Shown here piece after piece: positions 34,901-51,697 of a stretch of 64,000 nucleotides of DNA; position 1 is the stretch's first letter, and every line of letters begins with the position of its first letter. The stretch comes from Tepidanaerobacteraceae bacterium (GTDB taxonomy: Bacteria; Bacillota; Thermosediminibacteria; Thermosediminibacterales; Tepidanaerobacteraceae): NCBI GenBank assembly GCA_024655905.1, contig JANLFP010000001.1, positions 248,001 to 312,000 on the forward strand, given 5' to 3'. The position numbers were made by a program, and so were the translations under genes. The notes under the pieces are model-generated. The model did not search any database. It saw only the letters and a list, made by a program, of their open reading frames with translations, and was not told the DNA's origin.

Positions 34901-35156
34901 GGTCTCCACTGGGACCCCAGTCTACTTTTTTCCAGCTTTCATCATCAATATTTCCTTCCAATTTATATTCTGTAGAAGAGAGCTGGCTAAAACTGAAAAT
35001 CTGTGCATTTCCATACTTGTTGCTGTAAAAATTATTGCCCGCCGCATAGCTTTTTTGAGGAAAAAACAATAAATTGTTAAAAATTAATGCGAACACCAAA
35101 AATAACCCTATAACGGAACTAAGATTTTTTTTGTTTCCCCCCGCCAAGACTTTCAT
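25977..35156 (-). CDS. Giant multi-domain SLH surface protein (3059 aa)
   Basis: After a Sec signal peptide (hydrophobic SVIGLFLVFALIFNNLLFF, cut near SYAAG) come an InlB-B-type repeat (about 200-265), a Big_4-like Ig domain (270-355) and an IPT-like domain (360-455). A long beta-rich region is followed by a helical stretch near 905-1010 (VKNPTGVVKDLLNKATNII), then about seven tandem modules of 100-115 residues with the core WNAxYxxxxNxVYxxVDVxxxGEW (DNA 31.9-29.9 kb). Next are a fibronectin III domain (PPTPGKPEL...), Ig-like segments (29.1-28.6 kb), a cadherin-like beta domain (FSPQVFDYTLSV), further InlB-B repeats, a charged linker and three C-terminal SLH repeats that anchor it to the cell wall. 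The third SLH repeat lacks a good TRAE motif. ATG 35156 has GGAG upstream. Likely adhesive or structural. Confidence 0.85.
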   Translation of the reverse strand: MKVLAGGNKKNLSSVIGLFLVFALIFNNLLFFPQKSYAAGNNFYSNKYGNAQIFSFSQLSSTEYKLEGNIDDESWKKVDWGPSGDRYVQFEPNYQNTSIGDYPVKVKLNLYEKDGSFVKTIQNSGSIMYLGPLGFIYFGDRSQNYFVSIEPKKHGDVVNHNVSIISYTNGSFLKNKNVDDLNSYPNRCSPYTNFSLTYAAGLNGTISGNANQVVGTGGSGTAVTAVPNPGYAFSHWSDGRTDNPRVDANVTENKTVTAYFEISYESIINMVKESIHIIYAPGDSEDSVTENLQLMDNGAAYGATVTWTSSNPNVITPTGAVMRPASGGDAYVTLTATISSGGLSETKVFPDIRVLMDANVDIRIDGVTPEKIYVDEDKKIYIAGKGFRAFADKSKLNVSVAKEGWTGAVPAENIKIYSDNLMALAVPAADGNCEGAYTVIIEHMDFGTIKKANAYEITADSRYKRPNVEEVVLTTENPDIERKQISIKGIFEEDIERKGLYTLNDTGQAVTFNSYLKFKGSSLTIDTRKGHGSLMGAGRFYVDTADSTGIVSTVTIYEGDFYLDPGSFRFKLSGGKQEVDMLGMKMPIRINEFYFSNDGFKVNGDIWVGLDIDKSTSVGDWFNLDDIGIGARGIGIKKVFQINKGIYIPPFEAAGLKAGVDTLTPEYSFAANAKISGITEYGFDMAFTVRKGKVNYVKFVLSGLEVDVPPIMMKFTSFGGGIENLSDRSSGPTTVVALSSMSDMLEMTYQGRDFLNIENMRLGLSQYHMDASGQAKIYGMVDVGDIAFVAVWNAAKHPGYAQNGFELKGETKSPLDIIGKTKVQVSAWGKKNIDAELKTIMPFKLPSFLEAVGGAKINEMTLRGNNEEVKATSTVLGIGVTAGYNFKSNKVIFEPHIDPPKPKEVATGLYNAAEKLSTSLYNAVKNPTGVVKDLLNKATNIINDAMKDPVGTFIKYGTPLGMTEKAFDIATSTALVCTKVTEMALSKVVGKDVAKAIVAPQKEVIETAKKVKDVAKKTFNNVKKKLFCEEYRDSVALEINEKGRMLFEFNGVVSDNIVVQAPDYDTRYRKDQEDPALRLVFDQNDPNWNALYIPEENKVYLVLDVNMTGEWAFIDWNWINAIPEDLRPDVYKYADVTAYEIPEHANMRYVVDNILENGKSTELDFPAPGRYMLEIAGNMADIKIHTPLGGAYPLEFAPYEDAWNAVWYEDLNKVYAIVEVASGETEGWKIAGDSVKIYEISGDNKQALQNLAKAPGKMTLHVENTGKILIQVLGKNTNPRLYRPDGSQYPLVFDEGNGGFNAVCAQDGSSVSVLVDADVAGEWYLLYDGDAQVITYNADQYADMQDLISGSMSAHVTSIKVDDEAQANGGSLLFKVEGATDVIAIISPAGINMKESVEKLAYEGDNVLYFIVDKPQKGAWQLVTGNNVKVSTYYINKNELGGLAEIVEGYKNAEEYDSYPVKIDHYASVVMEVKFADDQTVNVSEDIEVIKPNGESLELDFDETSPSWNAYFKEDDNRLFILHDVEETGTWQIIAPKAEYVEVNNSYGELMGNIKATVEAGTLYEEFLEFKAPQLVALELHGAEVENTVIEQVYYDRSQRRTDDDFKIVAPIQLTQDNAKQEGDALYVLLRVGEDDLDKKWRIKSSDPFELEYRIITENGETIDTIDKFLNPPGGFNTSVELTAGKKWLLEVTPYDSGVSLYDPSGNEYPLSIIPEDASGDGYNAYRNGDTLVISVPVDESNAGEWKISSSKMVDVTVREIEPIPEIEKFAFADQGGGRYSVEWKVANPEPDEQVSILLIDEAAKNSVDYFGTELATGLYSSGKAEVVMPEGLLPGKYYLVLKSENSGYGAQYLAHDSYINVTYPNVPPTPGKPELVSGANGEIKIKFADPNFDQVDHYVVMMQNEDGTLDKSGPMLEVTPAESQEQHAVLSGLAPEKTYRIVVLAVAKQGETYYTSVPSECLEVFLPTPVLPEIALTINVAADRSKTEKVHETPYQYFEYVKNGVTGVWKLEERTRTLTEKTTLINAASADVNIGIVGGESCDIEFYLDGILRESRENASSLNVALTDLSEGAHEIVVVAVTEDGTENTLEERLIVDITSPHIGILSPGKDGLVSGDSVDIVGEAEAGSILKINNEEVSIGEDGEFSHHVGGLSYNVTTPLDFELTDQAGNRTEKIMNIMAVENLYLDSSSAGLLSLTTDAGDLSFSPQVFDYTLSVAEAVYSISFTPETQLLTQKIETRLGEEVFEEIPSGSSKQFQLATGSNRIQFRVTSEDGSVVNTYTVIVNRGMADETYSIIYDGNGNNFGSAPIDSNSYKKNDTAIVSGKGSMQKTGYTFAGWNTIKDGTGIWFKEGDTISIGDSNVILYAQWESSGEAYAAAEPDSIRTGNYSRKEFILTIANDYFHKEVQNKDLSLGGVFDGLSVEVMNCTSTTITAAVYETVYGGFDKKGIGEIIISPEVLEKSRLPLIAEITVKGEHTVRFLDDKGNLLKEEDVVHGASATAPAAPEKEGYVFIEWDKAFEHVTSDLTVFPHYEIKAYNVVFNSLGGSEVPVQTVDYGSKASVPQNPSRSGYVFSGWYREQSLMTLFDFSTSITGNLTLYAKWIKKDNPTAEKESSNRKDNQEKTETHATVVINGQKQMTGKEIVRENGSRKEVEITVESLPLIQKIEEMIAAKPEPGQKDLGQSENNVEVPVSAKNASSVAAKLNGEIFDKLSENKFRLSIDTGEIRYIIPAEEINIVNAAKALQTEKERLNDVEIEIRINKIEEAEANEIAERAKLNNCEVIVKPVDFSVTVKTKTQGKEKEYEITRFKRYVQREILLPEGVSPDRITTGAVRNADGTFAHIPTQVLEREGRYYAKLNSLMNSTYVILWNPVEVKAVDSHWSKAAVNDMAARLIVKNPEDFAPDKPITRGEFAEYITKALGIYRTGVAGGQLFADVPENDELADAIAIASEFGIIKGYTDGRFRPQALIAREEAMVMFARAMDIVELQEKDSSRIRKYEDKEQVSAWAYDAVKKALGSSVFNGRSTDTIAPRGAFTCAEAATAVRNLLIEAGLINK

Positions 35157-35238
35157 AGAACGCTCCACTCCTCTTCTTTCTTTTCGTTAATTACTGGTAA
35201 GCCGGCTTTTATTTCAGCCTTAGCATTCCCGCGATACG

Positions 35239-37032
35239 TTACTCTACTGTATAAGGCTTTTCCAAATTTCCGCATCCCTTCAAACTTCGCAATTTTTTTG
35301 CATCCAGCACGACTGCCGGTACCACCGCAACTTCGGATTGTGCCGCAAAAGTTGCACTGACATTGCCGTTTTTGTGCAAAAACCTGACTTCCGTAGTCGT
35401 AAAATCCAAGGCATTGCGGTCCGTATACGGGGTCCTGAGCCAATAATCCACATATTCTGCAGGCTTGTTTGCCCAACCTTTTTTGCATTCCCAGCCCCTG
35501 TCCCACACATATTCTTTCAGTTCCTGCAAAGACAAGAGAAACACCGTATCCGTTATATTCTGATACCGCGCATCGGCATAATTTTGCAAAGCCTCGTTAG
35601 GTTTTCCGTACCGGTAACGGTGATCCTCAACACCCCCGTTTTTTGCCGATTGATCCGCTTCCGCCATGAGCACCCTGTGGGTAATTGGTTTTAGCAATTC
35701 CCTTTCCCTTTGGGTAAAGCCGGCCAAAAATCCCGGCTCCTCATCGTAAGGATTGCTCCCCTTCCACAGGGCATTTGCCTTGGGAGGCTGGGTGGTCCAA
35801 TTAACCTTCTGATCCGCAGAATTAAGCCACTCCCGTATATTGGAATTTTCCCATCGGTTGCTGCCCCATTTCTGCCGCTGCAAATCAAGGCTGTAAGTTC
35901 CTCCCTGACTCCTTATTATGCCGCTTTCCGCAGCGTCAAATGCTTTTTTCCCAATGGCATACTCCGACCACAGTAAAGGATTGCCTTCATTGTCGACATT
36001 GATGACGCGCCACAATAGCTTTTCTCCCTTATAAGCGCCAAACAGCACATAATCTCCTTCTCTTAAAGAAATGGCATGTCTTTCCTTTAGCGTGTATGGA
36101 TCTTCTCTGCTGCCTGTGCCGGAACCAATCTCGACTTTGCCAAAATCAACCATAACCGCTGGGGCTACGCCGCCGCTTACGCTGCAGGCAAATGTGTTGC
36201 TGATGAGCCCATCTGCCGTGATAAACCGCACTCCCTGTCCGGAACCGTTAGCCGGGGTGCGCAGCCATGCATTCCAGTACTGTTCCTCTCCCAATCCGGC
36301 AAACTTCAAAGTACTTTTGCTTACAGCCTGCTCTGTCGGCTTCTTTCTGTATTCCCAGCCTCGATCAGCCACATATTGCTTGACCTCTTTGACCGACAGC
36401 AAAAATACCTTGTCCTTTACTATTTGATACCTTGCATTGTCATAATTTTGAACTGCCTTATCTATTTTCGCTTGATAAATATGCTTCAAACTGCTGCTTT
36501 TTGGATCCTTCATCCCATCATCGAGATACGACAACAGCACCTTATGCTCGGTTTCTTGAATAAGCTCCTTCTCAAAGCTTGTGAAATTACGGTCGGATAA
36601 AAAGCCGCTTTCCGCGTCGTAAGCATTGTTTCCATTCCAGAGGTTTTCCCTCGAAGGCGGATTTTGCTTCCACTGGATAACTTGTTCTTCGCTGTTCAGC
36701 CACTGCCTGATATTTGAGTATTCCCAGTTGTTGCTGCCACCCTCCCGTCTGCTTATCTCCCTATGCTTATCTCCTCCTGCATCAAACGGCTTCAAGCTGA
36801 TGATATATTCTGACCAAAGCAGCAGCCTGCCATTTTCATCTTTGTCGATTGCCCTCCACAATATGGGTTGCCGGTCATACGAACCAAACAGCACATAATC
36901 TCCTGTTTCCACTGTTTTTTGTATGTCATCGGCTTTAGCTAAATTTCCAAAAAAGCAGCAGCTTATCGCCACAAGGACAATTATTGAACCGGCGGTTCTT
37001 CTTATAACCTTTTTCCATTCTGGCAAAATCAT
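35239..37032 (-). CDS. Secreted protein with two DUF6273-like repeats
   Basis: A signal peptide (hydrophobic 13-30, cut near LAKA) is followed by two homologous halves of about 280 residues. Each begins GDYVLFGSYDRQPILWR / GDYVLFGAYKGEKLLWR and continues LLLWSEYIISLKPFDA, SNIRQWLNS, YNDARYQI-like text (YDNARYQIVKDKVFLLS / YADARYQNITDTVFLLS) and ends WLRTPxxxxxx...VAPAVMVD / VVPAVVLD. These are the marks of DUF6273, found in Firmicute surface proteins; activity is unknown, though the fold is related to sugar-binding, C-type-lectin/FGE-like proteins (from memory). No SLH or other anchor is present, so it may be released or bind the SLH proteins encoded on both sides. ATG 37032 follows GGGGGAG. 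Confidence 0.75.
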   Translation of the reverse strand: MILPEWKKVIRRTAGSIIVLVAISCCFFGNLAKADDIQKTVETGDYVLFGSYDRQPILWRAIDKDENGRLLLWSEYIISLKPFDAGGDKHREISRREGGSNNWEYSNIRQWLNSEEQVIQWKQNPPSRENLWNGNNAYDAESGFLSDRNFTSFEKELIQETEHKVLLSYLDDGMKDPKSSSLKHIYQAKIDKAVQNYDNARYQIVKDKVFLLSVKEVKQYVADRGWEYRKKPTEQAVSKSTLKFAGLGEEQYWNAWLRTPANGSGQGVRFITADGLISNTFACSVSGGVAPAVMVDFGKVEIGSGTGSREDPYTLKERHAISLREGDYVLFGAYKGEKLLWRVINVDNEGNPLLWSEYAIGKKAFDAAESGIIRSQGGTYSLDLQRQKWGSNRWENSNIREWLNSADQKVNWTTQPPKANALWKGSNPYDEEPGFLAGFTQRERELLKPITHRVLMAEADQSAKNGGVEDHRYRYGKPNEALQNYADARYQNITDTVFLLSLQELKEYVWDRGWECKKGWANKPAEYVDYWLRTPYTDRNALDFTTTEVRFLHKNGNVSATFAAQSEVAVVPAVVLDAKKLRSLKGCGNLEKPYTVE

Positions 37033-37085: not shown

Positions 37086-37126
37086 TTATTCAAGGTAGAT
37101 AATCAATAATTACCTACCTTGAATAA
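37086..37126. terminator. Hairpin after the lectin-SLH gene
   Basis: TTATTCAAGGTAG (37086-37098) and CTACCTTGAATAA (37114-37126) are a 13 bp perfect inverted repeat in the gap between two minus-strand genes. There is no T-run, so partial termination or mRNA end protection is likelier than full stop. Confidence 0.55.
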
Positions 37127-37131
37127 TCCCA

Positions 37132-40100
37132 TTATTGATTTATTAAATTTGTTTCAGTCAATAAATTTCTGATTGCTTGAGCGGCTTCAGCATATGTGAA
37201 GGATTTTAACGGCAATAATTTTAATTCATCATTACCATTAAATACTTTCGCGCTTACCACTTTCTTAACATGCTCATATGCCCAAACGGGCACAGAATCT
37301 TTATCCTCATAGCTGTCGATTCTGTTTTTGCCAGAGCCTATTAAACCGACTATATCCATTGCTCTGGAATACATCACCATTGCTTCCGCTCTAGTAATAT
37401 GCTGATCCGGCTTAAAACTTCCATCCGGATATCCTTTTACTATCCCGTATTCAATTGCTGTCTTTATTGCATTTGCTTTTGGATGCATTTTATCAACATC
37501 ATTGAATTCTATTTCATTGACCGCTTCAATTCTATAGACTCCCATAGCTTTAACAATATACTCCGCAAATTCTGCTCTTGTTATTTGATTATCTGGGATA
37601 AACTCATCCGGATCGCCTATGATTAATCTTGAAGCCATATCATTTACTGCGCCTTTTGACCAATGGTTCTCAACTGACTTTACAGTTACGGGATTCCATA
37701 TTACTGAATAAATTGAATCTGTTAAGGAGTTTATCTCTGCGTAATATTTTCCATGCTTTATAGAAATGTACGTTGGAACGTGAGAAAAACTTCCATCAGA
37801 ATTATACACAACGCCCGTGGTTATTTTGTTTGGATCAACTCCTTCAGGTATTGCCACAATTCTTTTCACATATTGATTAAAGTTTGCAATCTCAAATTTA
37901 TTTTCTTTTTCTCCTGTTTTTGTCTGTGCCACCACTCGAAAATCCACGGGAGACAATACTACTTCATAATTCTTTTGTTCAGCTTGCTTTTTTATCTGTT
38001 CGGCAAACGATTTTTCTAGCTTGTCTATTTTTATTTCTATTTCAATTTGATCCAATGCCCCTTCATCTGCTCCCAATATTTTGGCTACATTTTCAATGTT
38101 TATTTCTTTGGCGGGAATAATAAAATTAATTTCTCCCGTGTTTATTGAAAGATTGAATTTGTTTGCCTCCATCTGCTTTAATGTTTCTCCAGTTAATTTG
38201 GTGGTTACACTGTTTGCTTCTTTTTCTTTTACCGGAATTTCCACTATATTTGATGAGGATTCATTATCCGTTTGGTCCGCTCCCTGTTTTGCTCTTAAGA
38301 CTTCTTCAATCTTTTGTATGACAGGCTTTGCTTCTACATAGATCTCCACTTGTTTTAAATTGTTGTTTTCCTTAACCACTTCCTTGCCAGCTGTTTGACT
38401 TTGCCCATTAACAACGACTGATATTCCATCTCCCGCTTTATCAGTTTCTCTTCCTCCGGACTTCGTTTTCGAATTTTTAATCCATTTTGCATATAATGTT
38501 ATATCATCTGTTACCGGTGCATCAAAATCATACGGTATGTTAAAGTTTTCGTCTGAATACCACCCTCCAAATGTATATCCTGCCCTTGTTGGTTCAGCCG
38601 GCTTTACTGCTTTATCTTTGTAGTTTACTGCTTGTTCCGATATATCGCTCCCAATATATTTGATTATGCATTTTTTTATCTCGTATTGAGCTGTTGCAGT
38701 AAGATCGGAAGAAACTTTGCCAAATTCCTTGTCCCATCCAATAAAAACATATCCTTCTTTCTCCGGGGGCACCGGTGCAGTTGCACCTTTCCCGCTTACT
38801 ATGTCTTCTTCTTTTAGCACATTTCCCTTATCATCCAAGAACCTTACTGTATATTCTCCTTTTACTGTCACTTTGGCAACAAGCGGCGTTTCGCTCTTGT
38901 CCAAAACTTCAGGATTAATTATAATTTCACCTATGCCTTTCTGATCAAATCCTCTATATACACTTCCGTATACGCTTTCATATACTGATGCAGTAACAGT
39001 CGTATTTGTATATGTTAATACTTCAACTTTTAAATCGCTAAATACGCCTCCTAAACTCAAATCATTATCTGTTATCTTTCGTTTTATGCTGTCATTTTCC
39101 AAAATTAGTAAAAATTCCTTATGCGTGTAACTACCTGTTTTTATAGTATTCGGGTCTACAATTACATAAGCCTCTCCATTAGAAATCCACTTCGCATATA
39201 ACGTTATATCACCCGTTACCGGCGCATCAAAATCATACGGCACTGTCAGTCCTTCATCCGCATACCATCCTTCAAAGGTATAGCCTATCCTGGTCGGTTC
39301 CGCAGGCTCAGCCGCTCTTTCATTGTGGTTTACCGTTTGGTCGGCCACTTCACTCCCGCCATTTTCTTCAAAGCTCACTGTATGCTGAGCTATATCTCTA
39401 TTTATAGTTACGGCATAGTACCTTACTGTGGTTCTATCCTCTGCCGTCACTTTTATATATACTGTTGCTGCACTTCCTGCTGTAAGAGCAATTGTGTCAT
39501 CTCCCGCTGCTTCTCCAGTAAAATCACTGTTCCTGTAAAGATTTTTGCTTGCATTTTCGGAAACAGATATATCAGCCAACCCTATTGTTTCCTTTTCATT
39601 AGGCAAGGTTATATACCAAATAATTGCTGCATCCGGTGTATTGCCATTCCCTCCAGCAGGAGTGCTGTCTGTCTGACCCGCTACACTGATTAATGCATTC
39701 TCAGAACTTTGCTGACTATAAATGGTTACATTAGTTACTGCCGATATTGAAGATGCAGAAAGATCAATATATTCGCCACCGTATTCCACAACATAGCCTT
39801 GAATAGTAGACGTGCTTAATGGGAAATCATTCCAATCTCCCGGCTTATAATTCCACGCCCAGTAAGGTAAATTTTTTCCCATTATATGAAGATAGTCTTC
39901 GCCGGGAAAATCGTTGTTTGGTTCTAAGCCTGTTTTCCAGTTATTATATTGTCCTCCAACAGGACTTCCATTTTCATTACCCTGCCAAAACTGCGTTCCA
40001 GCTTCGGGGCCTGTGACCCACTTCCATACACCCTCAGTTTCTTCGTCACTCGCGCCCAACCATCCTGCGCCATCACATTTGGATGTTACAAAATCATTTT

Positions 40101-40692
40101 CACCCTGGGAAGTTATGGTAGCAAGATATCCCTGATGCCCGTCATAATATCTGGCTTCTGCAGCCGCTTTTGCATCATGCCAGGATATACCCGGTGCATT
40201 TACAAATTCATAATAATGGCCTGTTCCATCATAATAAATTACTTTTCCGTCCGAAGTATTTACTAAAAATACAATGGTTCTCGTCCCTGAAACAGCATTT
40301 GTCTGAAATGCAACAGTCCTTAAAACCTCCTGGTATGCGTTCACAGAAGCCATACCCGACACTGTGAGCACACCTGACTCCGAATTATATTCTGCTGAAA
40401 GTCCTGCATCTGCAGCCATAGACATATTGCAGCTCAATATATCTCCGCTTTCCTCGCTAAAACCATTATCAATATTTACTGTAGCGCTATAAATATTTCC
40501 TATTCCCGCAATAGTCAGTTCCGGATCTATTACCTGCGAGTTCCCGGTTGCAGAATAATCGATGTTTGAAACTACAGTAATGGACTCTATGCTGCCATCT
40601 GCATAGACTTCTGCAGGAATACCTATAAATAAATTCATGATCATTGAAAGAACCATTACCCAGCATACAAAACCAATTTTCTTAAAATTCAT
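37132..40692 (-). CDS. SLH surface protein with C-type lectin-like domain (1186 aa)
   Basis: A signal peptide (FVCWVMVLSMIMNLFIGI, cut after VYA) is followed by a cadherin-like segment (35-150) and a C-type lectin-like domain at about 155-310: YYEFVNAPGISWHDAKAAAEA, GHQGYLATITSQGENDFV, GWLGASDEETEGVWKW, the Ca/sugar loop EPNN, and WND before GYVVEYGG. Both EPN and WND motifs of sugar-binding lectins are intact. A bacterial Ig-like segment, three InlB-B-type repeats and a region closely related to the 3059-aa protein (GEAYxxxDPxxIKTGxYxxKEF) follow, then three SLH repeats at the C-terminus for cell-wall anchoring. ATG 40692 is preferred over 40698 for spacing from GGGGG. Confidence 0.85.
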   Translation of the reverse strand: MNFKKIGFVCWVMVLSMIMNLFIGIPAEVYADGSIESITVVSNIDYSATGNSQVIDPELTIAGIGNIYSATVNIDNGFSEESGDILSCNMSMAADAGLSAEYNSESGVLTVSGMASVNAYQEVLRTVAFQTNAVSGTRTIVFLVNTSDGKVIYYDGTGHYYEFVNAPGISWHDAKAAAEARYYDGHQGYLATITSQGENDFVTSKCDGAGWLGASDEETEGVWKWVTGPEAGTQFWQGNENGSPVGGQYNNWKTGLEPNNDFPGEDYLHIMGKNLPYWAWNYKPGDWNDFPLSTSTIQGYVVEYGGEYIDLSASSISAVTNVTIYSQQSSENALISVAGQTDSTPAGGNGNTPDAAIIWYITLPNEKETIGLADISVSENASKNLYRNSDFTGEAAGDDTIALTAGSAATVYIKVTAEDRTTVRYYAVTINRDIAQHTVSFEENGGSEVADQTVNHNERAAEPAEPTRIGYTFEGWYADEGLTVPYDFDAPVTGDITLYAKWISNGEAYVIVDPNTIKTGSYTHKEFLLILENDSIKRKITDNDLSLGGVFSDLKVEVLTYTNTTVTASVYESVYGSVYRGFDQKGIGEIIINPEVLDKSETPLVAKVTVKGEYTVRFLDDKGNVLKEEDIVSGKGATAPVPPEKEGYVFIGWDKEFGKVSSDLTATAQYEIKKCIIKYIGSDISEQAVNYKDKAVKPAEPTRAGYTFGGWYSDENFNIPYDFDAPVTDDITLYAKWIKNSKTKSGGRETDKAGDGISVVVNGQSQTAGKEVVKENNNLKQVEIYVEAKPVIQKIEEVLRAKQGADQTDNESSSNIVEIPVKEKEANSVTTKLTGETLKQMEANKFNLSINTGEINFIIPAKEINIENVAKILGADEGALDQIEIEIKIDKLEKSFAEQIKKQAEQKNYEVVLSPVDFRVVAQTKTGEKENKFEIANFNQYVKRIVAIPEGVDPNKITTGVVYNSDGSFSHVPTYISIKHGKYYAEINSLTDSIYSVIWNPVTVKSVENHWSKGAVNDMASRLIIGDPDEFIPDNQITRAEFAEYIVKAMGVYRIEAVNEIEFNDVDKMHPKANAIKTAIEYGIVKGYPDGSFKPDQHITRAEAMVMYSRAMDIVGLIGSGKNRIDSYEDKDSVPVWAYEHVKKVVSAKVFNGNDELKLLPLKSFTYAEAAQAIRNLLTETNLINQ

Positions 40693-40824
40693 AAGCATAT
40701 TCCCCCTTCATTCTTCTGATTAGACATTCAGGCTGCAAAATGCATCGCCCTCAGATAATGAAAATGCTGCTTCGTATTCCTGGGATAGTTGCAACAATTT
40801 CTCAATTTTGCAATAGATTATAAA

Positions 40825-43800
40825 TTATCTGGAAGGGACGTAATCCGGATTGAAGAACGGGTATTTTTCCCCTTCCTTTATATACCATAAGGTGTTTTCA
40901 CCCGAACCTTCCTCCGATATGCTCCACCCGTCAAAGGTGCCGATTTGCTTCAGCTCTGCCTCAGTCTTGCCTTCAATATCGACGGTCGCTCCGACGATGT
41001 TGAAAACGGCTGAGGTGGAGGGGTTTTCTGTTGTATTATAGTAGCAGCCGGAAATTTCGGTACCATCGACTACTTCGAATGCAAAGCCTAAGTTGTTGGC
41101 AACATCGCCTGACACGTAGGCGTTTTGGATGACGACATTGCTGGCTTCATATATAAATCCCGCTCCCCAGCCCGCACCGCCTTCTATGTCACGGCTTTCT
41201 TCCATTTTCCCGGCAAAATAATTATTCCGCAAAGTGCTGTCCTTAACCCTCGCGGCAAAGCCGGCCGCATTCCACGGAAAATCTCCCAATTGTTCGGGAG
41301 CGTCATTTCCTCCCACCAGACCCGACGCATAGCAGCGGGTGACGTTACTACTGTCCTCTATAAAAAGCGAAAATCCGCTTATAAAACCTAATCCCAGGAC
41401 ATCACCCTCTGCGCTGCAGAGGTCTAGATGGCTGTCCACAATCCAGCCGGCAAAGCCGCCGCCCCCCAAAAACGCGCTGTCCAGGTTACCGTGGGCATGG
41501 CAGTTTGTTACCCAAGTTTTAATCAGCTTGCTGGCAAAGCCGCCCGCAGGCCCGTTCGTAAGATAAACATCCAAAACGTTGGAGTCTATGTCCAGATTGT
41601 TGATATCCACAGAGGCGCTGCAGTTTTCGATCGTAATATAGCCGGAATGGGTATTGGTCCCGTCTGCATAGCCGATAAACCCGCCGACTTTTTCCGTTGC
41701 CAAGCCTTTTCCTTTTCCTTGAATGATGCCTTGAACGGTGCTGTCTTTGATGACAATATCGCCCTGGGTATCAGTAAACTGCGAAGTATCAATGACGCCG
41801 ATCACCCCGCCTTTTCCGTCGCTTCCAATATAATAAATGGAATTTGAATCGCCTGCTATAATTTCCAAGCCTGAAACTACGCAATTGTCTACATCTAATT
41901 CATCCGCCGATGAATTTTGCAGTTCTCCTGCCACACCCCCTGTCGAATAAAACATGAGCATTTTGTCGTCGTTATGACTGCTGTCCTCGTCAATTTCATT
42001 GACAGCTTCTATATGAATATTTTTCACACGGATGTCTGCCAAGCCGCCTCCATCTAATAGGCCGGTTATGCCCCCTACATTATGAACTGCGGGAACTGTG
42101 TCAAAATCTCCGGTTCTATAGGAAATCATACTGAGACCATCCAGCTCAAGGTTTTTAAAATACGTATTTTCACTCTTGCCGACAAATCCTCCGATGTATT
42201 TGGGGTTACGAAAACGCCATTTATATGCCATGTCAACAATATCATACTGAGCATTCCTAACCGTGCAATTTTCTATCCTGGCGCCGGTTGCCGTGCCTGC
42301 AACAGCTCCGAATTTGGCAAAAGCCGTAATATTGACATCCTCCAGCGTCAAATCTTCTATAAGTGCCCCCTCACCCAGGCTGCTGAACAAGCCTTGCGGT
42401 TCATGCTCGTCGTCGATTGTCAGGTTCATTATTTTGTGACCTTGACCGGAAAAAATTCCCGTAAAGTCAATTGCCATTGTATCTTCCGGGAAATACCCGA
42501 TTGACTCAAAATTATCCCCCGCCAGGTCGATGTCGGCCACCAGCATGTATTTCTTGTCCATGCCGCCGGTGTAGGTGCCTTCCCACCTGGTACCCGCGCC
42601 GAAGGTGTTGTCAACGGGGTTTTCTATCTGCTTTAGTTCCTCTTTGTTGGCTATGGGGATCCAGCCTTCCCTGATCTTTGCCGTAACTGGGTCTACGGTT
42701 ACACGGCCAATGGGATCACTTATCGCCGTCCCAGTATAATTGCCGGTTCCTGTTACGATGACCCTAATTTTTGTATCAGAGTCTTCCTCCGTCAGCGTGT
42801 AGCTCGGCCCGGTTGCTCCTGCTATGTCCGCAAATTCATCTGCCCTTTTGCCGCGCTGCCACTTATATGTCACCGTAGCGCCTGAAGGTTTCACCTCGGC
42901 ATATACCGTCTCTCCCACGATTGCCGTCCCCGTTATTTCCACGCCCGTTACAGAAATCAGAAAAGGATCAATAGGCCCGATGCTGCCGCTTGCTGCCGTG
43001 CCTTTATAACTTCCAGTTCCCTCTACGACGACTCTGATCTGTTTTCCTTCGTCTTCTTCTGTCAGCACATAGCTTGATTCTACTGCTCCCTCGATGTCTT
43101 CATAGTCTGCTCCGTTGCTGCGCTGCCACCGGTATACTGCCGTGGCGCCGCTGGGATAAACCGCGGCATATACCGCCTCTCCCACGGTAGCTGTTCCCGT
43201 TATTTCAACACCCGTTATGGAAATAAGCTGGGGTGTCTGGTTTCCTGATGAGCTCCCCGATGAGCTTTTTCTTCTTGTTGATGACCCCTGATCGGCATTT
43301 GATTGGCTTATTTGCTCGCCGCCAATGTTTACTACGATATTTTTGCCGAGTATTTCCGTATATTCCGGTTTTTTCTCCAGTTTTACATCATCTGCGTCAA
43401 TGTACGCCTTTTTGATTTTTCCTTCGCCGCTGATCCGGACACCGGCACTGATTTTTGCCGTGACTATGGTGGTTTTGCTGTCCGTATTTATTTTGGCTGT
43501 TGATTTGATTTTCAGTTCCTTTATATTTGAGGATTCTATTTCCAGCCTTGGCTCTTCTTTGGCTCTGGTGATGATAAGCTTGTCCGCCGTTACGTTTTCA
43601 AGAAGAATCGGCTTGCCAGCGCTTCCGCCGCCGATCTCCAGCTTCCCTTTTATAGTGGAGTTTTGTATGGTTATGTTCCCGGCTACACCCGGCGTTATGT
43701 ATAGGTCTGCTTTGATCTCCTTATCTTTTATGACGATATCCGGTTTGATTATGGTGATTTTTTTGACATCATCCGGTATGTTTTCCAAATCCTCCTGACT

Positions 43801-44430
43801 GGTTACGATGTAGCCCAGCACGTTTTGTGCAATGGTCATGATTTCGGCGCGGTTTATTATCCGATCGGGCCGGAAGGTGCCGTCCGGGTATCCCTGCAGG
43901 TACCCCATCTGGCTGAATGCCTGTATGTCTTCTTTTATCCCTTCGTCCAGATCCCCTATATCGGAAAAATCTGTGCCTTGTTTGATGCGCTCCTGTTCCG
44001 CCAGATCCAGGAGCAGGGAAACCATCTGTACCACGTCTCCCCTGGTGGCGAATTCCTCAGGCCTCGCCTTCAGCCCATCAAGATAGCCGTAATACCTGGC
44101 CCTTGCCGTGTCGGGGGCATACCATTCCGTCCCCTTTACATCCTCGAAGTTATTCCTGCTTTGTTGTATCAGCCCGAAATAGCGGTTGATAAGACTGACA
44201 AGTTCACAACGCCTCATCCCCTGATCGGGCCGGAAGGTCCCGTCTGGGTATCCTTTTAGAAAGCCCTTGCTTGCATGTTCAATTATTGTTTTTTCGGCCC
44301 AGTGGCCCTGTATGTCGCTGAAGGGCAGACCGCCCTGCCCGCTGTCCGCCGCGCCATACCCGTTTGGCGCCATGGTCAAAAGCAATGCAACTGTAAGAAT
44401 GATGCTCCACGCTTTTTTTATTTTTCTCAT
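40825..44430 (-). CDS. SLH surface protein with Ig-like domains and GLUG/beta-helix region (1201-1205 aa)
   Basis: Signal peptide (AWSIILTVALLLTMAPNGYGA), then three SLH repeats at the N-terminus (FSDIQGHWAEKTIIEHASKGFLKGYPDGTFRPDQGMRR; the second degenerate; GYLQGYPDGTFRPDRIINRAE). A short beta-helix-like strip (KPDIVIKDKEIKADLYITPG) and a Ser-rich linker follow, then two Ig-like repeats of about 85 residues (ITGVEITGTATVGEAVYA ... VYRWQRSNGADYEDIEGA and its copy). The last 600 residues are a GLUG-like right-handed beta-helix (FSGQGHKIMNLTID, GLFSSLGEGALIEDLTLEDVNI). SLH at the N-terminus is opposite to the other two surface proteins. ATG 44430 has AGGGGGAT upstream, rather far at 12 nt. Confidence 0.85.
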   Translation of the reverse strand: MRKIKKAWSIILTVALLLTMAPNGYGAADSGQGGLPFSDIQGHWAEKTIIEHASKGFLKGYPDGTFRPDQGMRRCELVSLINRYFGLIQQSRNNFEDVKGTEWYAPDTARARYYGYLDGLKARPEEFATRGDVVQMVSLLLDLAEQERIKQGTDFSDIGDLDEGIKEDIQAFSQMGYLQGYPDGTFRPDRIINRAEIMTIAQNVLGYIVTSQEDLENIPDDVKKITIIKPDIVIKDKEIKADLYITPGVAGNITIQNSTIKGKLEIGGGSAGKPILLENVTADKLIITRAKEEPRLEIESSNIKELKIKSTAKINTDSKTTIVTAKISAGVRISGEGKIKKAYIDADDVKLEKKPEYTEILGKNIVVNIGGEQISQSNADQGSSTRRKSSSGSSSGNQTPQLISITGVEITGTATVGEAVYAAVYPSGATAVYRWQRSNGADYEDIEGAVESSYVLTEEDEGKQIRVVVEGTGSYKGTAASGSIGPIDPFLISVTGVEITGTAIVGETVYAEVKPSGATVTYKWQRGKRADEFADIAGATGPSYTLTEEDSDTKIRVIVTGTGNYTGTAISDPIGRVTVDPVTAKIREGWIPIANKEELKQIENPVDNTFGAGTRWEGTYTGGMDKKYMLVADIDLAGDNFESIGYFPEDTMAIDFTGIFSGQGHKIMNLTIDDEHEPQGLFSSLGEGALIEDLTLEDVNITAFAKFGAVAGTATGARIENCTVRNAQYDIVDMAYKWRFRNPKYIGGFVGKSENTYFKNLELDGLSMISYRTGDFDTVPAVHNVGGITGLLDGGGLADIRVKNIHIEAVNEIDEDSSHNDDKMLMFYSTGGVAGELQNSSADELDVDNCVVSGLEIIAGDSNSIYYIGSDGKGGVIGVIDTSQFTDTQGDIVIKDSTVQGIIQGKGKGLATEKVGGFIGYADGTNTHSGYITIENCSASVDINNLDIDSNVLDVYLTNGPAGGFASKLIKTWVTNCHAHGNLDSAFLGGGGFAGWIVDSHLDLCSAEGDVLGLGFISGFSLFIEDSSNVTRCYASGLVGGNDAPEQLGDFPWNAAGFAARVKDSTLRNNYFAGKMEESRDIEGGAGWGAGFIYEASNVVIQNAYVSGDVANNLGFAFEVVDGTEISGCYYNTTENPSTSAVFNIVGATVDIEGKTEAELKQIGTFDGWSISEEGSGENTLWYIKEGEKYPFFNPDYVPSR

Positions 44431-44492
44431 ATAAAAATCTATCCCCCTGAAATTTATGATTTGAAAAATATCCATGAAGATATTTTTGAAAT

Positions 44493-44525
44493 ATTATATC
44501 ACCCTTTTCTTACAAATTTCTTACA
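44493..44525 (-). promoter_or_regulatory. Promoter of the SLH genes with SARP-like operator
   Basis: On the minus strand two TGTAAGA heptamers (44525-44519 and 44514-44508) repeat with an 11 bp period, 9 bp ahead of a perfect TATAAT (44498-44493). There is no good -35. Direct heptamers 11 bp apart overlapping the -35 position are how SARP/BTAD regulators bind, and such a regulator is encoded right upstream. Confidence 0.6.
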
Positions 44526-44539
44526 TGAAAGTAATATAT

Positions 44540-44577
44540 AAAAAAACCAAAAATCCAGAAAATATAAGGATTTTTGG
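44540..44577 (-). terminator. Terminator of the kinase-regulator operon
   Basis: CCAAAAATCC (44547-44556) and GGATTTTTGG (44568-44577) form a perfect 10 bp stem; on the minus strand seven T follow. It lies 42 bp after the response regulator stop codon and separates it from the SLH genes. Confidence 0.88.
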
Positions 44578-44619
44578 CGTTGTGCCCACGTTTCGACCGC
44601 AAGCTTCAGTAAAAATATT

Positions 44620-45612
44620 TCAAAATTTTGTCGTAATCATGCGTTTTATGTCGGGCAGGTCTTCTTTGCGAAGTAAGAATTTAGCTTTATTGTATAACTT
44701 TTTTAAATCAGAGGTGCATTCATTTGCTATGTAATACGACGCTGCTCTTTTTACAAGCTCAACATAATTCTCATAGCACTTTTCCCTCTCTGCAATGCTC
44801 CACCAGTAGTCTCTGTCCGCAAACAGGTCTCCCCTGTAAAGTGAGATGGCTTCTTCATACTCGCCAATTGTCTGCCGATCGACCGTAATTTTCTTTTTGA
44901 TAAAAGCTTCAAATTCTAAAAAATCGCAGAAAACATCTTCCAGGTTCATGCGGTACACTCCCGCGCGATTTTCTATCTCTGCTTTTATGCCGGTGTCCTT
45001 CAAGGTTTTCTTTAGTCTGAATATGCTGGTATACAAATTCTGCATGGATTTCTCGCTATCGGATTCCCCCCATAAAAGATCTATAATTTTCCATTTGCTG
45101 GCTCCTCTTTCATGATTTAACAGCAGCAGAGCAAAAAGCTCTTCGACTTTTGAAGTAATCCATTTGACTTTTTTGCCGGTTTTATTTGTCAAAATGCATA
45201 CGTCTCCGAATACAAATATTTTGCCCCTATCCTGCGATTGCACCCCATTTCCGCGCCTTTTTGCTATCCTGTTTACGGTTTCATCTATGGATTCCCTGTC
45301 CGCAGGCTTTAGAATGTAGTTCACGGCATTGAGCTTAAAGGCATGGATGGCATACTGCTCATAGGCGGTAACGAATACAATGTCAATTTCCTTTTCAAGT
45401 TCCAGTAATTCTGTCCCCAACTCTATACCGTTAATCCCCGGCATTTCCACATCCAGAAACACCACGTCAGGCTTGAGCCTGGCTATTTCTTCCAAGGCAA
45501 TATCGGGGTCGGTGAATTCGCCTACAATTCTTACCTTACCGCTTTCTTTCAACAATCTTTTCAAATGGTCGAGCACCAATACTTCATCGTCCACAACCAC
45601 TGCATTAATCAT
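44620..45612 (-). CDS. Response regulator with SARP-type (winged HTH + BTAD) output
   Basis: The 330-residue protein has a receiver domain (1-120: DD at 8-9, phospho-acceptor D54 in VFLDVEMP, T82, K102) and an OmpR-type winged helix (about 130-225: IFVFGDVCILTNKTGKKVKWITSKVEELFALLLL ... SIFRLKKTLKDTG), followed by a bacterial transcriptional activator domain (BTAD, 226-330: CDFLEFEAFIKK ... EEAISLYRGDLFADRDYWW). This is the SARP architecture fused to a receiver. It overlaps the kinase gene by 8 bp, so kinase and regulator are one system. Its likely target is the SLH promoter at 44.5 kb. Confidence 0.9.
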   Translation of the reverse strand: MINAVVVDDEVLVLDHLKRLLKESGKVRIVGEFTDPDIALEEIARLKPDVVFLDVEMPGINGIELGTELLELEKEIDIVFVTAYEQYAIHAFKLNAVNYILKPADRESIDETVNRIAKRRGNGVQSQDRGKIFVFGDVCILTNKTGKKVKWITSKVEELFALLLLNHERGASKWKIIDLLWGESDSEKSMQNLYTSIFRLKKTLKDTGIKAEIENRAGVYRMNLEDVFCDFLEFEAFIKKKITVDRQTIGEYEEAISLYRGDLFADRDYWWSIAEREKCYENYVELVKRAASYYIANECTSDLKKLYNKAKFLLRKEDLPDIKRMITTKF

Positions 45613-48600
45613 CTTCTCCCTCCTCTGCATCTGCTTGCGCAGGGACTGCAAAAAAAACTTTTGTCCCCTCTTTTCCTGTTTCAAATTTCAGTTTCTCATT
45701 ATAAAATCTTTTCAGCCTTCTGTTTATGTTGACAAGTCCCACCCCGCTTCCCTCATCCAAACCTTTCTCCCTCTCGCAATACTTTTCGATCCTGTCTATC
45801 TCCCTGCCGCTTATTCCCTTGCCGTTGTCCTCAACAACGACAAGGACCTTTTCGCCCGCCTTCTTTACGCTGAGCCTTACGCTGCCGCCCTGTTTGTTTT
45901 TGAGCGCGCCGTGCCGTATGGCGTTTTCGACCAAAGGTTCTATTACAAAAGGTATGATTTTCAGCGGCAGTGCTTCCTGGTCCACATCGTATTCCATTTT
46001 CAGCCTGTCACCAAATCTCTCCTTTTGAATTTCAACAAAACACTTCACATGCTTCAATTCCCTTTCTATGCTAATCAAACTTGAATTATCGCTGATTTCA
46101 AAAGAATGCTTAAGGTAATGCGACAGTTTCTCAAGCATTTCTCCGGCCCTTTGCCCGTCGGTATAGCAGAGGCTAATGACGCTGTTTAAGGTATTGAACA
46201 AAAAATGTGGCTTGATCTGCGACTGAAGCATTGCCGTTTCCCTGGCAACAGCCGCCTCAGTCGCCGCCTTCATACTGCAGAGGGTATTGATCCTCGCTTT
46301 TAATTCCTCCGCGTCAAAAGGCTTGTGAAGTATATCGTTGGCGCCTTCTTTAAAGCTTCTTACAACCGCGTCCATTTGCGTGCGGGCCGTGAGAACAATT
46401 ACAGGCATTTCATAAAGCGTGTACCTTTCCCTGATTTTGCGGCATATTTCATAGCCGGACATTTCCGGCATCATCAAATCAACTACTGCCAGCACCGTAT
46501 TTTTGTTTGCAAATAGCTCTTCCAAACCCTCGGCAGGATTTACAAATCCCTTTACTGAATAACCTTCCGTTTTCAAAATGCCGGCAACTCCGGCTATGTT
46601 TGCGTAATTGTCGTCGATGATTACAACCGTATCGTTCCTTTCTCCCTTCATATCCAGCCTTGGAAACAGTTGCTCTTTTCTTTCATTTATTCGGACGGAT
46701 TGACCGCTTTCCTCCGCTGCTTTGCTGTTATCATCAACTATGGGTATATAAAACTCAAATTCAGAGCCCTCGCCCAAAAAACTTCTAACCCTTATGTCCC
46801 CGCCGTGGGCCCTCGCTATTTGCCTTGATATGCTGAGCCCCAACCCCATGCCTCCGTATCTCGGCGCATTTACCTGCGAAAAAGGCTTGAATATGTCTTC
46901 CAGCCTGTCTTCCGGTATTCCTATCCCAGTATCCCTGACTCGAATGCACAAATTATTTTTTTCCGCGCATACCTTTACGGTAACGAGCCCCCCGCCTGGT
47001 GTAAATTTGACCGCATTTCCCATAAGGTTGTAAATAGCCTGAATAACTCGGTATTTATCTGCATAAATCTTTGGGATTCCGGAAGATACCTCGGCCCTTA
47101 CCGTTATCTTTTTGCCCGCGGTCACAAATTCAAACTCTCTTGCCAGGCTCTCAATAACGCTTTCTATATTGAAATATCCCTTGCTAAGGCATAATTCCCC
47201 GCTTCTCATGCTTTCAAAATCCAGTATGTCGTTAATCAGTTTAGATAACCTTTTGCCGCTTTCTATAACAAGACCGAGGTCTTGCTTCTGCTGTGCGTTG
47301 ATATCGCCCTTGGCGCCTCCAACGACCGATTCGGCAATTGTTATCATGCCGTTTAGGGGCGTTCTCAATTCATGAGCGGTGTTTATAAGGAATTCATCCT
47401 TGTGCCTGTCCATCAGAATCATCTTTTCCGACAGTTTTTCCAACTCGTCAAAGGCTTTGGAAAATCTCGCAGCCAGAACATACGCCTGAATGAATACGGC
47501 GACAAATGTCGCTATCCCTATCATGCCGCCGGGCAAGCTGTCAATGGTATTCCTGAAATAAAAAACATCGTTTGCAAAGGTGAGCAAAACCAGGATAATG
47601 CTCAATAACATCACGGCCGCTCCTTCCCTGTTCCTGAGCACGGCTAAAAAGACACAATATGCTGCATAAAGGAAAACAATCAATGCCAAACCTTCCGGGA
47701 CTGCCAAATATGACGTGTAAGCACGTATTGGCGCAACCACTGTAAACATCGTAAAAAGCACTGCGGCAAAAATAAAGGCTCTTGAAACTTTTTGTGAAAA
47801 CTCATCAGGATAAAGACTTTGAATAAAGAGTATCCACATCGCCGGGCCCCAGTATATTGTCATATATTCGACAAATATGATCCATTGAAAATCAAGGGCT
47901 GGGATAATTCTGGCTATATAGTACTCTCCTGTGAAAAGAATTCTTATGCCAATGACAAAAAGCGTAAGGACCATATACAATGTAGGCCTGTTCCTTTTTA
48001 AGAGCCAGTACATGGCAGCATGATAAACTATCATTATCACTATAACACCGAAAAGGAACATCTCTCTTCTGTCGGCATTTTCTTTCATGGCACGGATTTG
48101 CTCATCCGTTCCCATATAAAGGGAATGCCAGAAACCGCCCCTTGAATAGGTATAATTTGCAATTTGAATAATGATTTCAAAATCCCTAGAATCGCTTTTA
48201 AAACTGACGGTCCCGGGATTATACTCCGGCAAGGCAGCATCCGGGCTTGTCCCCACAATGCCGCCGGAAGCGACGAGTTCATCATTGACCATGAGCCTGT
48301 AGGCAGTGGAAAATGTCAATATTTTTAGTCCATTCAAAACATTTCCTCTATTTGTTTTGATTTTTAATCTGTATGTGGCATAACCTTCCCCGGGAATTGC
48401 GTTGCCGGCAATGATTTGCCCGTTCCATACTCCGGGGACTTTTAAATATCCATCGGCCTCAGGCGAACTCTCTTTGCCATGGAAATCTTCATAGGTAAGC
48501 AGTCGCTTCCAGTAAAATTCCCATTCCCCGTCGAGTTTTACGATTCCATCTTTATCAAAATCCCAACCGGTCAGATCGAGAACACCTTTCTTTGCAGAAG

Positions 48601-48709
48601 GGGCTTTTTTAGGCGGATTATACGCCGAAATTGACAGAATCATGCCCACCAGGGATAAAATAAGTATTGAAACCGCGGCAATACGCTTTTTATGTAAAAA
48701 AAACTTCAT
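45605..48709 (-). CDS. Giant hybrid sensor histidine kinase with 7TMR-DISM sensor and two kinase modules
   Basis: The 1034-residue protein has a signal/anchor helix (7-28), an extracytoplasmic 7TMR-DISM jelly-roll-like domain (45-200), seven transmembrane helices (215-415), and a HisKA dimerisation domain with H446 (TAHELRTPLNG). An HATPase domain follows (N565, DTGIGI 593-598, GGMGLGLS), then a receiver domain (D744, K796). The C-terminal half is a LytS-type His_kinase (H835 in QIKPHFLFNTLNS) plus a second HATPase (N929, DNGKGI 961-966, GSGVGL). Start at ATG 48709 has GAGGAG 8 nt upstream. The response regulator follows with overlap. It probably senses an outside ligand and controls surface genes. 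Confidence 0.9.
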   Translation of the reverse strand: MKFFLHKKRIAAVSILILSLVGMILSISAYNPPKKAPSAKKGVLDLTGWDFDKDGIVKLDGEWEFYWKRLLTYEDFHGKESSPEADGYLKVPGVWNGQIIAGNAIPGEGYATYRLKIKTNRGNVLNGLKILTFSTAYRLMVNDELVASGGIVGTSPDAALPEYNPGTVSFKSDSRDFEIIIQIANYTYSRGGFWHSLYMGTDEQIRAMKENADRREMFLFGVIVIMIVYHAAMYWLLKRNRPTLYMVLTLFVIGIRILFTGEYYIARIIPALDFQWIIFVEYMTIYWGPAMWILFIQSLYPDEFSQKVSRAFIFAAVLFTMFTVVAPIRAYTSYLAVPEGLALIVFLYAAYCVFLAVLRNREGAAVMLLSIILVLLTFANDVFYFRNTIDSLPGGMIGIATFVAVFIQAYVLAARFSKAFDELEKLSEKMILMDRHKDEFLINTAHELRTPLNGMITIAESVVGGAKGDINAQQKQDLGLVIESGKRLSKLINDILDFESMRSGELCLSKGYFNIESVIESLAREFEFVTAGKKITVRAEVSSGIPKIYADKYRVIQAIYNLMGNAVKFTPGGGLVTVKVCAEKNNLCIRVRDTGIGIPEDRLEDIFKPFSQVNAPRYGGMGLGLSISRQIARAHGGDIRVRSFLGEGSEFEFYIPIVDDNSKAAEESGQSVRINERKEQLFPRLDMKGERNDTVVIIDDNYANIAGVAGILKTEGYSVKGFVNPAEGLEELFANKNTVLAVVDLMMPEMSGYEICRKIRERYTLYEMPVIVLTARTQMDAVVRSFKEGANDILHKPFDAEELKARINTLCSMKAATEAAVARETAMLQSQIKPHFLFNTLNSVISLCYTDGQRAGEMLEKLSHYLKHSFEISDNSSLISIERELKHVKCFVEIQKERFGDRLKMEYDVDQEALPLKIIPFVIEPLVENAIRHGALKNKQGGSVRLSVKKAGEKVLVVVEDNGKGISGREIDRIEKYCEREKGLDEGSGVGLVNINRRLKRFYNEKLKFETGKEGTKVFFAVPAQADAEEGEDD

Positions 48710-48779: not shown

Positions 48780-49298
48780 TTATTTTATCAAATATTTTGC
48801 TTCAAATCCAGAATTTATAAATTTTTCGATTGCATTAAGCAAACCCTGCCTACACCCTTTAAAATATGCTCCAACAGATGTACCAAGGCTATCAAATGAG
48901 GATTGATCCGAGCCGACACATATGGCCAAAAATCCTCTAACTCCCACAATATGAGGCTTTCCAAAACTCAAGGTTATGAGCGTCGCCGGGAGCGCAAGTG
49001 TAGGGCGCCCCGCAAGCTCCTCCCGGCAGGATACATACAGCTTTTCGCAAATCTCCAGCATGATGTTTTTGAGCCTGCCCACGGAAATGCAGTGCTGCCT
49101 GGCAATTTTGGCGCAAGGGACGCGCTGCGCCACAAGCAGGGCGAGGCGCATGGCAGAAAGCAGCCAGCGCCGGGCCTCGTCTTCGCATCCGAGACAATGG
49201 CAGGCGACGGCGCAGGTCACCCGCAGATAAATATCGGTTGTCGTGAATCCCTGCGGCTGTGCGGACAGGGTCAGGGCGGTCTGCGCCACGGCCAACAT
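48780..49298 (-). pseudogene. Broken C-terminal end of a LuxR/MalT-type regulator
   Basis: The minus-strand frame reads LAVAQTALTLSAQPQGFTTTDIYLRVTCAVACH and EDEARRWLLSAMRLAL (last TPR-type helices), then jumps to LLVAQRVPCAKIARQHCISVGRLKNIMLEICEKLYVSCREELAG, which is the LuxR-type HTH. About 100 residues that normally join the two are missing, and the 60 residues after the HTH (ICVGSDQSSFDSLGTSVGAY) are unrelated read-through. Upstream the frame is stopped by TAG at about 49308. I read it as a deletion relic. Confidence 0.7.
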
Positions 49299-49786: not shown

Positions 49787-51697
49787 TTATTTTTTAGTGA
49801 TGCGATCTATCCAGTCAAATAGTTCATCGAGGTCGTAATCTCCACCGTGGCCTTGACCCCAGGGCAGCATGAAGTCAACGTCGAATCCCTCGTTCTCCAG
49901 CTTTGTGGCTAAGATGACGGGGATTGCAAGCGAAGTATCCCTATCCACGGCTCCATGGCGGATCCGCCAGTACTTAGCGGTGGTGGTCCCCTCTGTACCG
50001 ATATAGTTCATTGGGTTCATCATCTTGATAATTTTTGCATCGGCAATCGAGCCGTCTTTTGTGCTATTCTCCTGGCTGAATTTTGTAAAGTGCTGGTTGT
50101 CAACGGCAGCGGTGCCGAACAGGCTGTTTTCAAAACTGCTTAAGTCCAAAGCGTCAAAGGCTGGGGCTGGCTTCATTCTTGTGGCATATACGGCATATTT
50201 TTCAAAGTCTATGTCTGTGACTGTTCCATTGTTTATGGTTATCCAGTCAAGTCCCGAAAGATCCGTTCCATTGTCCAGCGCTTTTTGCGCCGATGCGATT
50301 ACGAAAGACTTGACGTAGTCTTTAAAAGTACCGTCGCCGTTTAAATCCAGTGTCAAAGCAGTCCCATCAGCCTTCTTAAGTCCCAGACTATTCAAATACG
50401 CTGGAAACATAGCTTTCAGCTGGTTAGACACCTTGATCTGATCTTCCGTCAATGTGCCTTTTGTACCCCTGAAGTCGTAATCGTTTATGCCGTTAAAAAG
50501 CCACTCATAAGCCGTGTCCGCATTATCCAGATTCGTGATGGGGCAGTAACATGAAGCGGCAAAGATGTCGTCCGGCTCGTTTGCCGCACCGATTTCTTCC
50601 AGATAAGGCGCATAATCCGCATTGTTGCCTGTTGCTCCGAGCAGCGCCGATAGCGCGCCGCCCGCGCTTGTGCCATTGGAGACGATCCTTTCGGCGCTGC
50701 CGGGCATGATCTCGTCGTTATAACGCAAGTAGCGGACAGCTGCCTTAAGGTCCACGATGCATGCAGGCGCCTTGCCGGTAAATGTGCCATTTTCTCCCTG
50801 CAGAGTGCGCCCGCGCGCTCCGGGCGCCGCCACTACATAGCCTTTTGACAGGGCCATGAGTATTGCATTTGGATTGCCGGCATTGTCTACGCCTGGGCTC
50901 CCGGGTTTTGCAGGCATGTAGCCGCCCACCATGTTCGGGAAAAAGATTGGGGCCGTTTCTGCATTATAGTTGCCGATGGACTTGCCCCCAAAGTACTCCT
51001 CGGGGATGTAAATGTTCATCACCTCATAATCGGCATCCACGGGATTAGACACATAAACGATATTTTCATAGGCACGGTAGGCAATGGTTTTTCCTTCAAA
51101 ATCCGAAGTCTTCACAGCGTAATTCGAATCATTGAACACAAGGCTTATCTTTCCGCTGGTAATGACCGCGGCGTTTTTGCTGCTGTCATAGGCCACGGCA
51201 AATCCAAAAGCAGTGCCAAGGTCGCGCAGCTTAAAAAAGTTATTGCCTCCGATTATGTATTTGCTTGCATTTACATTGAGCCCGTTCACCTTGAATACCC
51301 AATTGCTTGAAGCACAAGCGGCAGATTTATCAGCACCTATGGATAGTTCCCCACCCACAGGCTGATATGCTTCACCTGTTTTGGCGATGATAGTATTTGC
51401 ACCAGCGTCATAGTCAACGGAAAATTGGGATTTTGTCCCGCTCAGCAGCCGTGCAATGTCACGAAGCTTGAAGTAGTTGTACCCATTGATGTTATAGGCT
51501 TCAACCCTAACTTCTCTGCCGTCTACAAAGACTTTCTGCGGGCTGGCTATTGCCTTGTCTGCGCCTTGAGTCGCGGAAATCGCGGCAAGCGGGCTGGCCA
51601 TCACCCCGGCAGCATCCGCAGCCGCATATGCCATAGTAAACGGCATAATCATAAATGACAAGGCAATGATTACAGCAAGCAATTTCTTAACATTCAT
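49787..51697 (-). CDS. Secreted tannase (subtype B)-like alpha/beta hydrolase with stalk domains
   Basis: The 636-residue protein has a signal peptide (LLAVIIALSFMIMPFTMAYA), two copper-amine-oxidase-N-like stalk repeats (55-105 VFVDGREVRVEAYNINGYNYFKLRD; 133-180 NWVFKVNGLNVNASKYIIGGNNFFKLRD), and a hydrolase domain from about 200. The nucleophile elbow is GTSAGG (S344); the acid is in HGAVDRDTSLAIP (D585 or D587) and the histidine in WGQGHGGDYDLDELFDW (H617). SNGTSAGGALS and WRIRHGAxDRDTS are what I recall for subtype B tannases/feruloyl-type esterases. It may release gallate- or phenolic-type acids outside the cell. A sigma-54 promoter lies at 51789-51804. Start ATG 51697. Confidence 0.82.
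   Translation of the reverse strand: MNVKKLLAVIIALSFMIMPFTMAYAAADAAGVMASPLAAISATQGADKAIASPQKVFVDGREVRVEAYNINGYNYFKLRDIARLLSGTKSQFSVDYDAGANTIIAKTGEAYQPVGGELSIGADKSAACASSNWVFKVNGLNVNASKYIIGGNNFFKLRDLGTAFGFAVAYDSSKNAAVITSGKISLVFNDSNYAVKTSDFEGKTIAYRAYENIVYVSNPVDADYEVMNIYIPEEYFGGKSIGNYNAETAPIFFPNMVGGYMPAKPGSPGVDNAGNPNAILMALSKGYVVAAPGARGRTLQGENGTFTGKAPACIVDLKAAVRYLRYNDEIMPGSAERIVSNGTSAGGALSALLGATGNNADYAPYLEEIGAANEPDDIFAASCYCPITNLDNADTAYEWLFNGINDYDFRGTKGTLTEDQIKVSNQLKAMFPAYLNSLGLKKADGTALTLDLNGDGTFKDYVKSFVIASAQKALDNGTDLSGLDWITINNGTVTDIDFEKYAVYATRMKPAPAFDALDLSSFENSLFGTAAVDNQHFTKFSQENSTKDGSIADAKIIKMMNPMNYIGTEGTTTAKYWRIRHGAVDRDTSLAIPVILATKLENEGFDVDFMLPWGQGHGGDYDLDELFDWIDRITKK

Follow-up and report, generated by a model that had tools for sequence, protein, structure and literature searches.

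RESULTS

Genes and promoter elements at the SLH1 locus

The window, that is, the whole 64,000-nt stretch of DNA analysed, contains on its minus strand a hybrid sensor kinase gene, a regulator gene, a promoter with a double heptamer, genes for three SLH surface proteins and a DUF6273 gene (Table 1). On this strand we confirmed the arrangement described in an earlier sequence-only reading, namely two copies of TGTAAGA exactly 11 bp apart, the second lying 9 nt before a perfect TATAAT, with no −35 element. Specifically, the order from 5′ to 3′ is TGTAAGA AATT TGTAAGA AAAGGGTGA TATAAT, with 4 nt between the heptamers, and no −35-like hexamer was found 16–18 nt from the SLH1 −10. A terminator-like hairpin closes the regulator gene just upstream, indicating that the double heptamer belongs to the SLH1 promoter. 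The SLH1 transcript would start at about position 44486, and the 5′ hairpin of the SLH1 leader is no more stable than those of shuffled sequences (z −1.0).

Table 1. Positions of the genes and regulatory features at the SLH1 locus (window coordinates)
Feature	Position	Strand	Remarks
Hybrid sensor kinase	45605–48709	−	7TMR-DISM, HisKA-HATPase-receiver, then LytS-type His_kinase-HATPase; probable ATG start at 48709, with the ORF open from 48778
Regulator gene	44620–45609	−	LytTR/BtsR-like receiver, SARP-like winged helix, truncated BTAD; probable ATG start at 45609, with the ORF open from 45684
Terminator-like hairpin and T run	44540–44578	−	3′ of regulator gene; z −2.5, 2/200 shuffles equally stable
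Upstream heptamer TGTAAGA	44519–44525	−	From sequence; conserved in relatives
Downstream heptamer TGTAAGA	44508–44514	−	11 bp from upstream heptamer; conserved in relatives
Extended −10, TGA TATAAT	44493–44501	−	From sequence; TATAAT at 44498–44493
SLH1, first gene after the promoter	40825–44430	−	ORF open from 44475; likely start at 44430 with signal peptide
SLH2 surface protein	37132–40698	−	Likely co-transcribed with SLH1
19-bp hairpin without T run	37086–37126	−	Between SLH2 and DUF6273 gene; z −4.2, 0/200 shuffles as stable
DUF6273 gene	35239–37032	−	Membership in transcription unit uncertain
SLH3, 3063-aa surface protein	25977–35168	−	Membership in transcription unit uncertain

Within the window an exact double heptamer is present a single time (0/100 shuffles), and the genome (3,195,216 bases) contains no further perfect copy. 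When up to two mismatches are allowed, the genome contains 28 matches, versus 35 for a reversed-pattern control; the near matches are thus in no excess and no regulon is visible genome-wide. These counts argue against a genome-wide regulon, and the match in the window is the only one with a −10 at 9 nt.

The hybrid kinase comprises two complete kinase modules, one HisKA-HATPase and one LytS-type His_kinase-HATPase, with a receiver in between. The LytS-type module is present in all eight kinases examined (that of the window and seven from the loci of relatives), and HisKA and the inner receiver in five of the eight. Upstream of the kinase gene lie an ORF without a Pfam match (48780–49298), which by eye resembles a remnant of a LuxR/MalT-like regulator, and a gene for a subtype B tannase (49787–51697; NCBIfam 680 bits, cut-off 300).

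The output half of the regulator is predicted to adopt a SARP-like fold

A receiver, a winged helix and a BTAD had been assigned to the regulator from its translation. Pfam bears out the receiver (residues 29–137, 85.6 bits, closest to BtsR) and, barely above the cut-off, the winged helix (26.4 bits), while the BTAD falls below the cut-off (15.2 versus 22.1 bits) and is a truncated domain that is recognized by its predicted fold. All 20 aligned proteins have the phosphorylation residues D78 (numbered from the ORF start at 45684), T106 and K126. A BTAD match at E 0.001 is found in 16 of the 20 aligned regulators, with the regulator of the window among the non-matching ones.

With the whole model, receiver matches crowded the fold search; AlphaFold was therefore run on the output half by itself (20 sequences; mean pLDDT 92). 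The best match among solved chains is EmbR (Z 15.6, rmsd 3.2, 199 residues aligned), and AfsR scores similarly (Z 14.7, rmsd 3.5, 195 residues aligned); both matches span the whole output half (model residues 2–205), whereas the best purely OmpR-type chain (Z 11.3) matches the winged helix only. The model thus supports a SARP-like fold, in which an OmpR-like winged helix is predicted to sit beside an all-helical BTA domain. The AfsR match stops at about AfsR residue 223, where the last BTA helices are absent. AfsR residues 243–252 are reported to hold sigma region 4 (R4) (PMC10936776), and the regulator of the window thus has no counterpart of this segment.

AfsR Thr88 and Arg92 are described as contacting bases (PMC10936776). 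A HMMER alignment places AfsR RTYASRLRK over YTSIFRLKK of the regulator, with Thr88 and Arg92 kept. The contact set of helix α3, comprising Thr88, Arg92 and basic residues at 94 and 95, is present in the helix LYTSIFRLKK.

An 11-bp period recurs behind related regulators

SARP operators are direct repeats 11 bp apart, with the last repeat about 8 bp before the −10, according to the AfsR study (PMC10936776). We scanned a discovery set of 65 loci, made up of the window plus 64 sites that encode a full-length relative of its regulator (near-duplicate pairs included, three weak loci, L186–L188, excluded), for two heptamers at least 6/7 alike, followed at 6–12 nt by a −10 (TAnnnT with one mismatch allowed), behind the regulator gene. 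A held-out set of 80 loci was composed of the best by E-value among the matches listed, with previously used genomes left out, and the predictions for it were recorded before the sequences were fetched.

The SARP-type spacing that the sequence-only reading had invoked is found at the window's promoter (11 and 9 bp) and recurs in both sets. In the discovery set, a period of 11 was found in 23 of 65 loci (11 of them with 7/7 identity), versus 0–3 loci at periods 8–10 and 12–21 and 4 at period 22, and the same scan returned no such site in the other 42. Period-11 matches behind regulators number 25, versus 0.93 expected from the frequency in the other parts of these loci. With 8/8 repeats and the −10 requirement dropped, period 11 was found in 15 loci versus 0–3 at other periods, and exact pairs at all positions number 25 at period 11 versus 0–7 at others. 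In the held-out set, period 11 was found in 11 of 80 loci, several of which (e.g. L243 and L272) resemble chance matches, versus 0–2 at other periods, and 69 loci gave no such site.

Some loci show further arrangements. In L110, about 115–150 nt behind the regulator stop, TAGGAGA, TGGGAGA and TGGGAGA follow one another in 11-bp steps before a TATAAT. Seven related loci (L161, L170, L175 and L177–L180) have common CATTTAGGGTT-type pairs behind the regulator.

The double heptamer is conserved within the regulator subfamily

The regulators closest to that of the window are those of L097 (57% identity), L204 (50%), L205 (47%) and L203 (46%). In a tree of 145 regulators, these four and the window form one clade with support of 1.0, and all five loci carry GTAAG N6 GTAAG with zero mismatches directly downstream of the regulator. 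L105 and L114, which join the clade with weak support, likewise carry GTAAG N6 GTAAG. When the window and L097 are compared over their whole intergenic regions, the longest exact match is an 18-nt site, ATGTAAGAAATTTGTAAG, that covers both heptamers, while the rest of the L097 intergenic DNA is unlike that of the window. Similarly, the site is the longest exact intergenic match between L105 and L114 (17 nt) and between L203 and L205 (16 nt). No ortholog was found at E 1e-30 in 25 other genomes of the window's own class (26 searched), and named genome contigs yielded only four weak relatives, which were left out of the analysis.

The heptamer at the same position varies between related loci together with the adjacent regulator. 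GTAAG pairs are present in 7 of 8 discovery loci with Arg92 versus 2 of 57 others, and in 3 of 14 held-out Arg92 loci versus 0 of 66 others (p 0.004). Arg92 is therefore associated with GTAAG pairs, yet on its own it does not suffice: 11 of the 14 held-out Arg92 loci are without such pairs, which rejects a simple one-residue code. GTTCAG pairs were found in 8 of 20 held-out Gln/Asn loci versus 5 of 60 others (p 0.002), and a predicted correspondence of Leu with ATTTAGG failed (0/17 held-out loci). A Mantel test of heptamer likeness against helix likeness over hand-chosen sites (23, reduced to 22) gave a weak correlation (r 0.16; 51 of 2000 permutations as high). On the tree, the GTAAG label changes 5 times versus 11.7 times with shuffled labels, indicating that much of the association between helix and heptamer reflects common descent.

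Genes under putative control

It had been proposed that the kinase and the regulator control all three SLH genes and the DUF6273 gene. Comparative genomics favours this for SLH1 and, probably, SLH2; for the DUF6273 gene and SLH3 gene order is the sole argument, and their control is uncertain because a strong hairpin with a perfect 19-bp stem precedes them. This hairpin is possibly an end, an attenuation point or a processing point, while the gap between SLH1 and SLH2 contains no fold more stable than shuffles.

In 22 of 65 loci the ORF after the regulator is 1000 aa or longer (two of these ORFs are kinases), a length reached by 33 of the 307 remaining ORFs of these loci. In the six GTAAG-group loci examined, the next ORF is of surface type, and the kinds are unrelated: NHL beta-propellers with Ig domains (L097), CWB2 (L105), SLH (L100), collagen-binding domains with LPXTG (L114), Ig (L204) and LRR (L205). 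The scan of next-ORF domains left out L203, where the next gene is not obviously of surface type, and L149, L153, L158 and L162. Judged by sequence, the controlled gene would often be a large, otherwise unrelated surface protein.

Alternative readings of the repeats

The double heptamer is very probably an operator of the neighbouring regulator that activates SLH1 and probably SLH2, a reading that draws broad support from comparison of loci across genomes. The main rival is that the double TGTAAG is a site for WalR, an essential regulator of cell-wall genes. In a WalR study (PMC9210968), the consensus TGTWAH-N5-TGTWAH is itself a direct repeat with an 11-bp period, and WalR is described as influencing S-layer genes of C. 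difficile. Each half of the window's TGTAAG-AAATT-TGTAAG fits this consensus at 5 of 6 bases, and walRK is encoded in the genome close to repeats that resemble WalR sites well. However, at position six both halves have G where the consensus has H, a G that the four nearest relatives share with the window, and the site is absent from the 29 exact matches to the WalR pattern in the genome. Moreover, a heptamer that varies by locus with the adjacent regulator is inexplicable by a universal WalR, and we consider a WalR site very unlikely. Elsewhere in the genome (L189, C31:172000–183000), a triple TGTAAYA with an 11-bp period lies near walRK, YycH and a gene for an M23/LysM/G5 peptidase and fits WalR boxes.

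An extended −10 promoter can do without a −35. The TGA-TATAAT of SLH1 is such an element, and could partly excuse the missing −35 or work without an activator, in which case the repeats would be incidental. That the repeats are the longest exact intergenic match to the best ortholog, whose intergenic DNA is otherwise dissimilar, and that their period and position recur across loci, makes this extremely improbable. It is also highly improbable that the regulator binds the repeats as a repressor, or that binding has autoregulation or some other role as its main purpose. The direction of control is not readable from sequence, there is no regulon to indicate it, and similar sites precede the regulator or kinase gene in L151, L152 and L168; in the window, by contrast, the site takes the place of the −35, which is the AfsR activator position, and the terminator-like hairpin parts it from the upstream regulator gene.

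DISCUSSION

Sequence comparison and structure prediction show here the anatomy of the site, the family-wide 11-bp architecture, the conservation of the site among the closest regulators and a predicted fold of SARP type. For the candidate operator of the neighbouring regulator, the following mechanism can be proposed. On triggering of the 7TM sensor kinase, the LytS-type module at its C-terminus would phosphorylate the receiver of the regulator. Two regulator protomers would then bind side by side at the place of the −35, one per 11-bp repeat, and, as AfsR does, would turn on the SLH1 promoter by way of sigma region 4 and the flap of RNA polymerase, with the operator driving SLH1 and probably SLH2. 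Binding, phosphotransfer and activation rather than repression are inferred here from AfsR (PMC10936776) and from a SARP review (PMC10972967), and how far the transcript reaches is likewise inferred.

More tentatively, and with some doubt, the LytS-type 7TM kinase, the receiver-SARP regulator and the heptamer-pair operator may form a private cassette that is widespread among Firmicutes-like bacteria and stays together while unrelated surface proteins (SLH, CWB2, LPXTG, beta-propeller, Ig, LRR) are exchanged behind it, each cassette being insulated by its own heptamer. If so, surface coats could be swapped without rewiring, and operators could be predicted from the recognition helix. SARP binding rules so far derive from actinomycete regulators of antibiotic genes; if the operator reading is right, the same rule would govern a group of two-component regulators that often target giant surface proteins, and would offer testable operators for many orphan systems as well as natural variation for a SARP recognition code. 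A search of the open-access literature, by titles and the openings of abstracts, found no study of the operators that receiver-SARP regulators use in Bacillota, which is not proof of absence.

The regulator combines features of three known systems. Like SARP activators (AfsR, EmbR and the ActII-ORF4 class), it has a winged helix with a BTA fold, putative target repeats of 11-bp period near the −10, and the Thr and Arg that contact bases in AfsR. Unlike classical SARPs, in which the winged helix is N-terminal and no receiver is present, it has an N-terminal receiver; its BTAD is truncated and under the Pfam cut-off, its host is probably a member of the Bacillota, and its probable target is a surface-layer operon instead of antibiotic genes. 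With OmpR/PhoB-type regulators such as WalR and PhoB it shares a receiver and a winged helix, and the WalR consensus is an 11-bp direct repeat as well, but the regulator of the window has an extra C-terminal BTA-like domain and its fold match to this type is limited to the winged helix. Finally, the LytS-type His_kinase module of the kinase and a receiver nearest to BtsR are reminiscent of LytS/LytTR-type two-component systems, except that the output domain is SARP-like, not LytTR.
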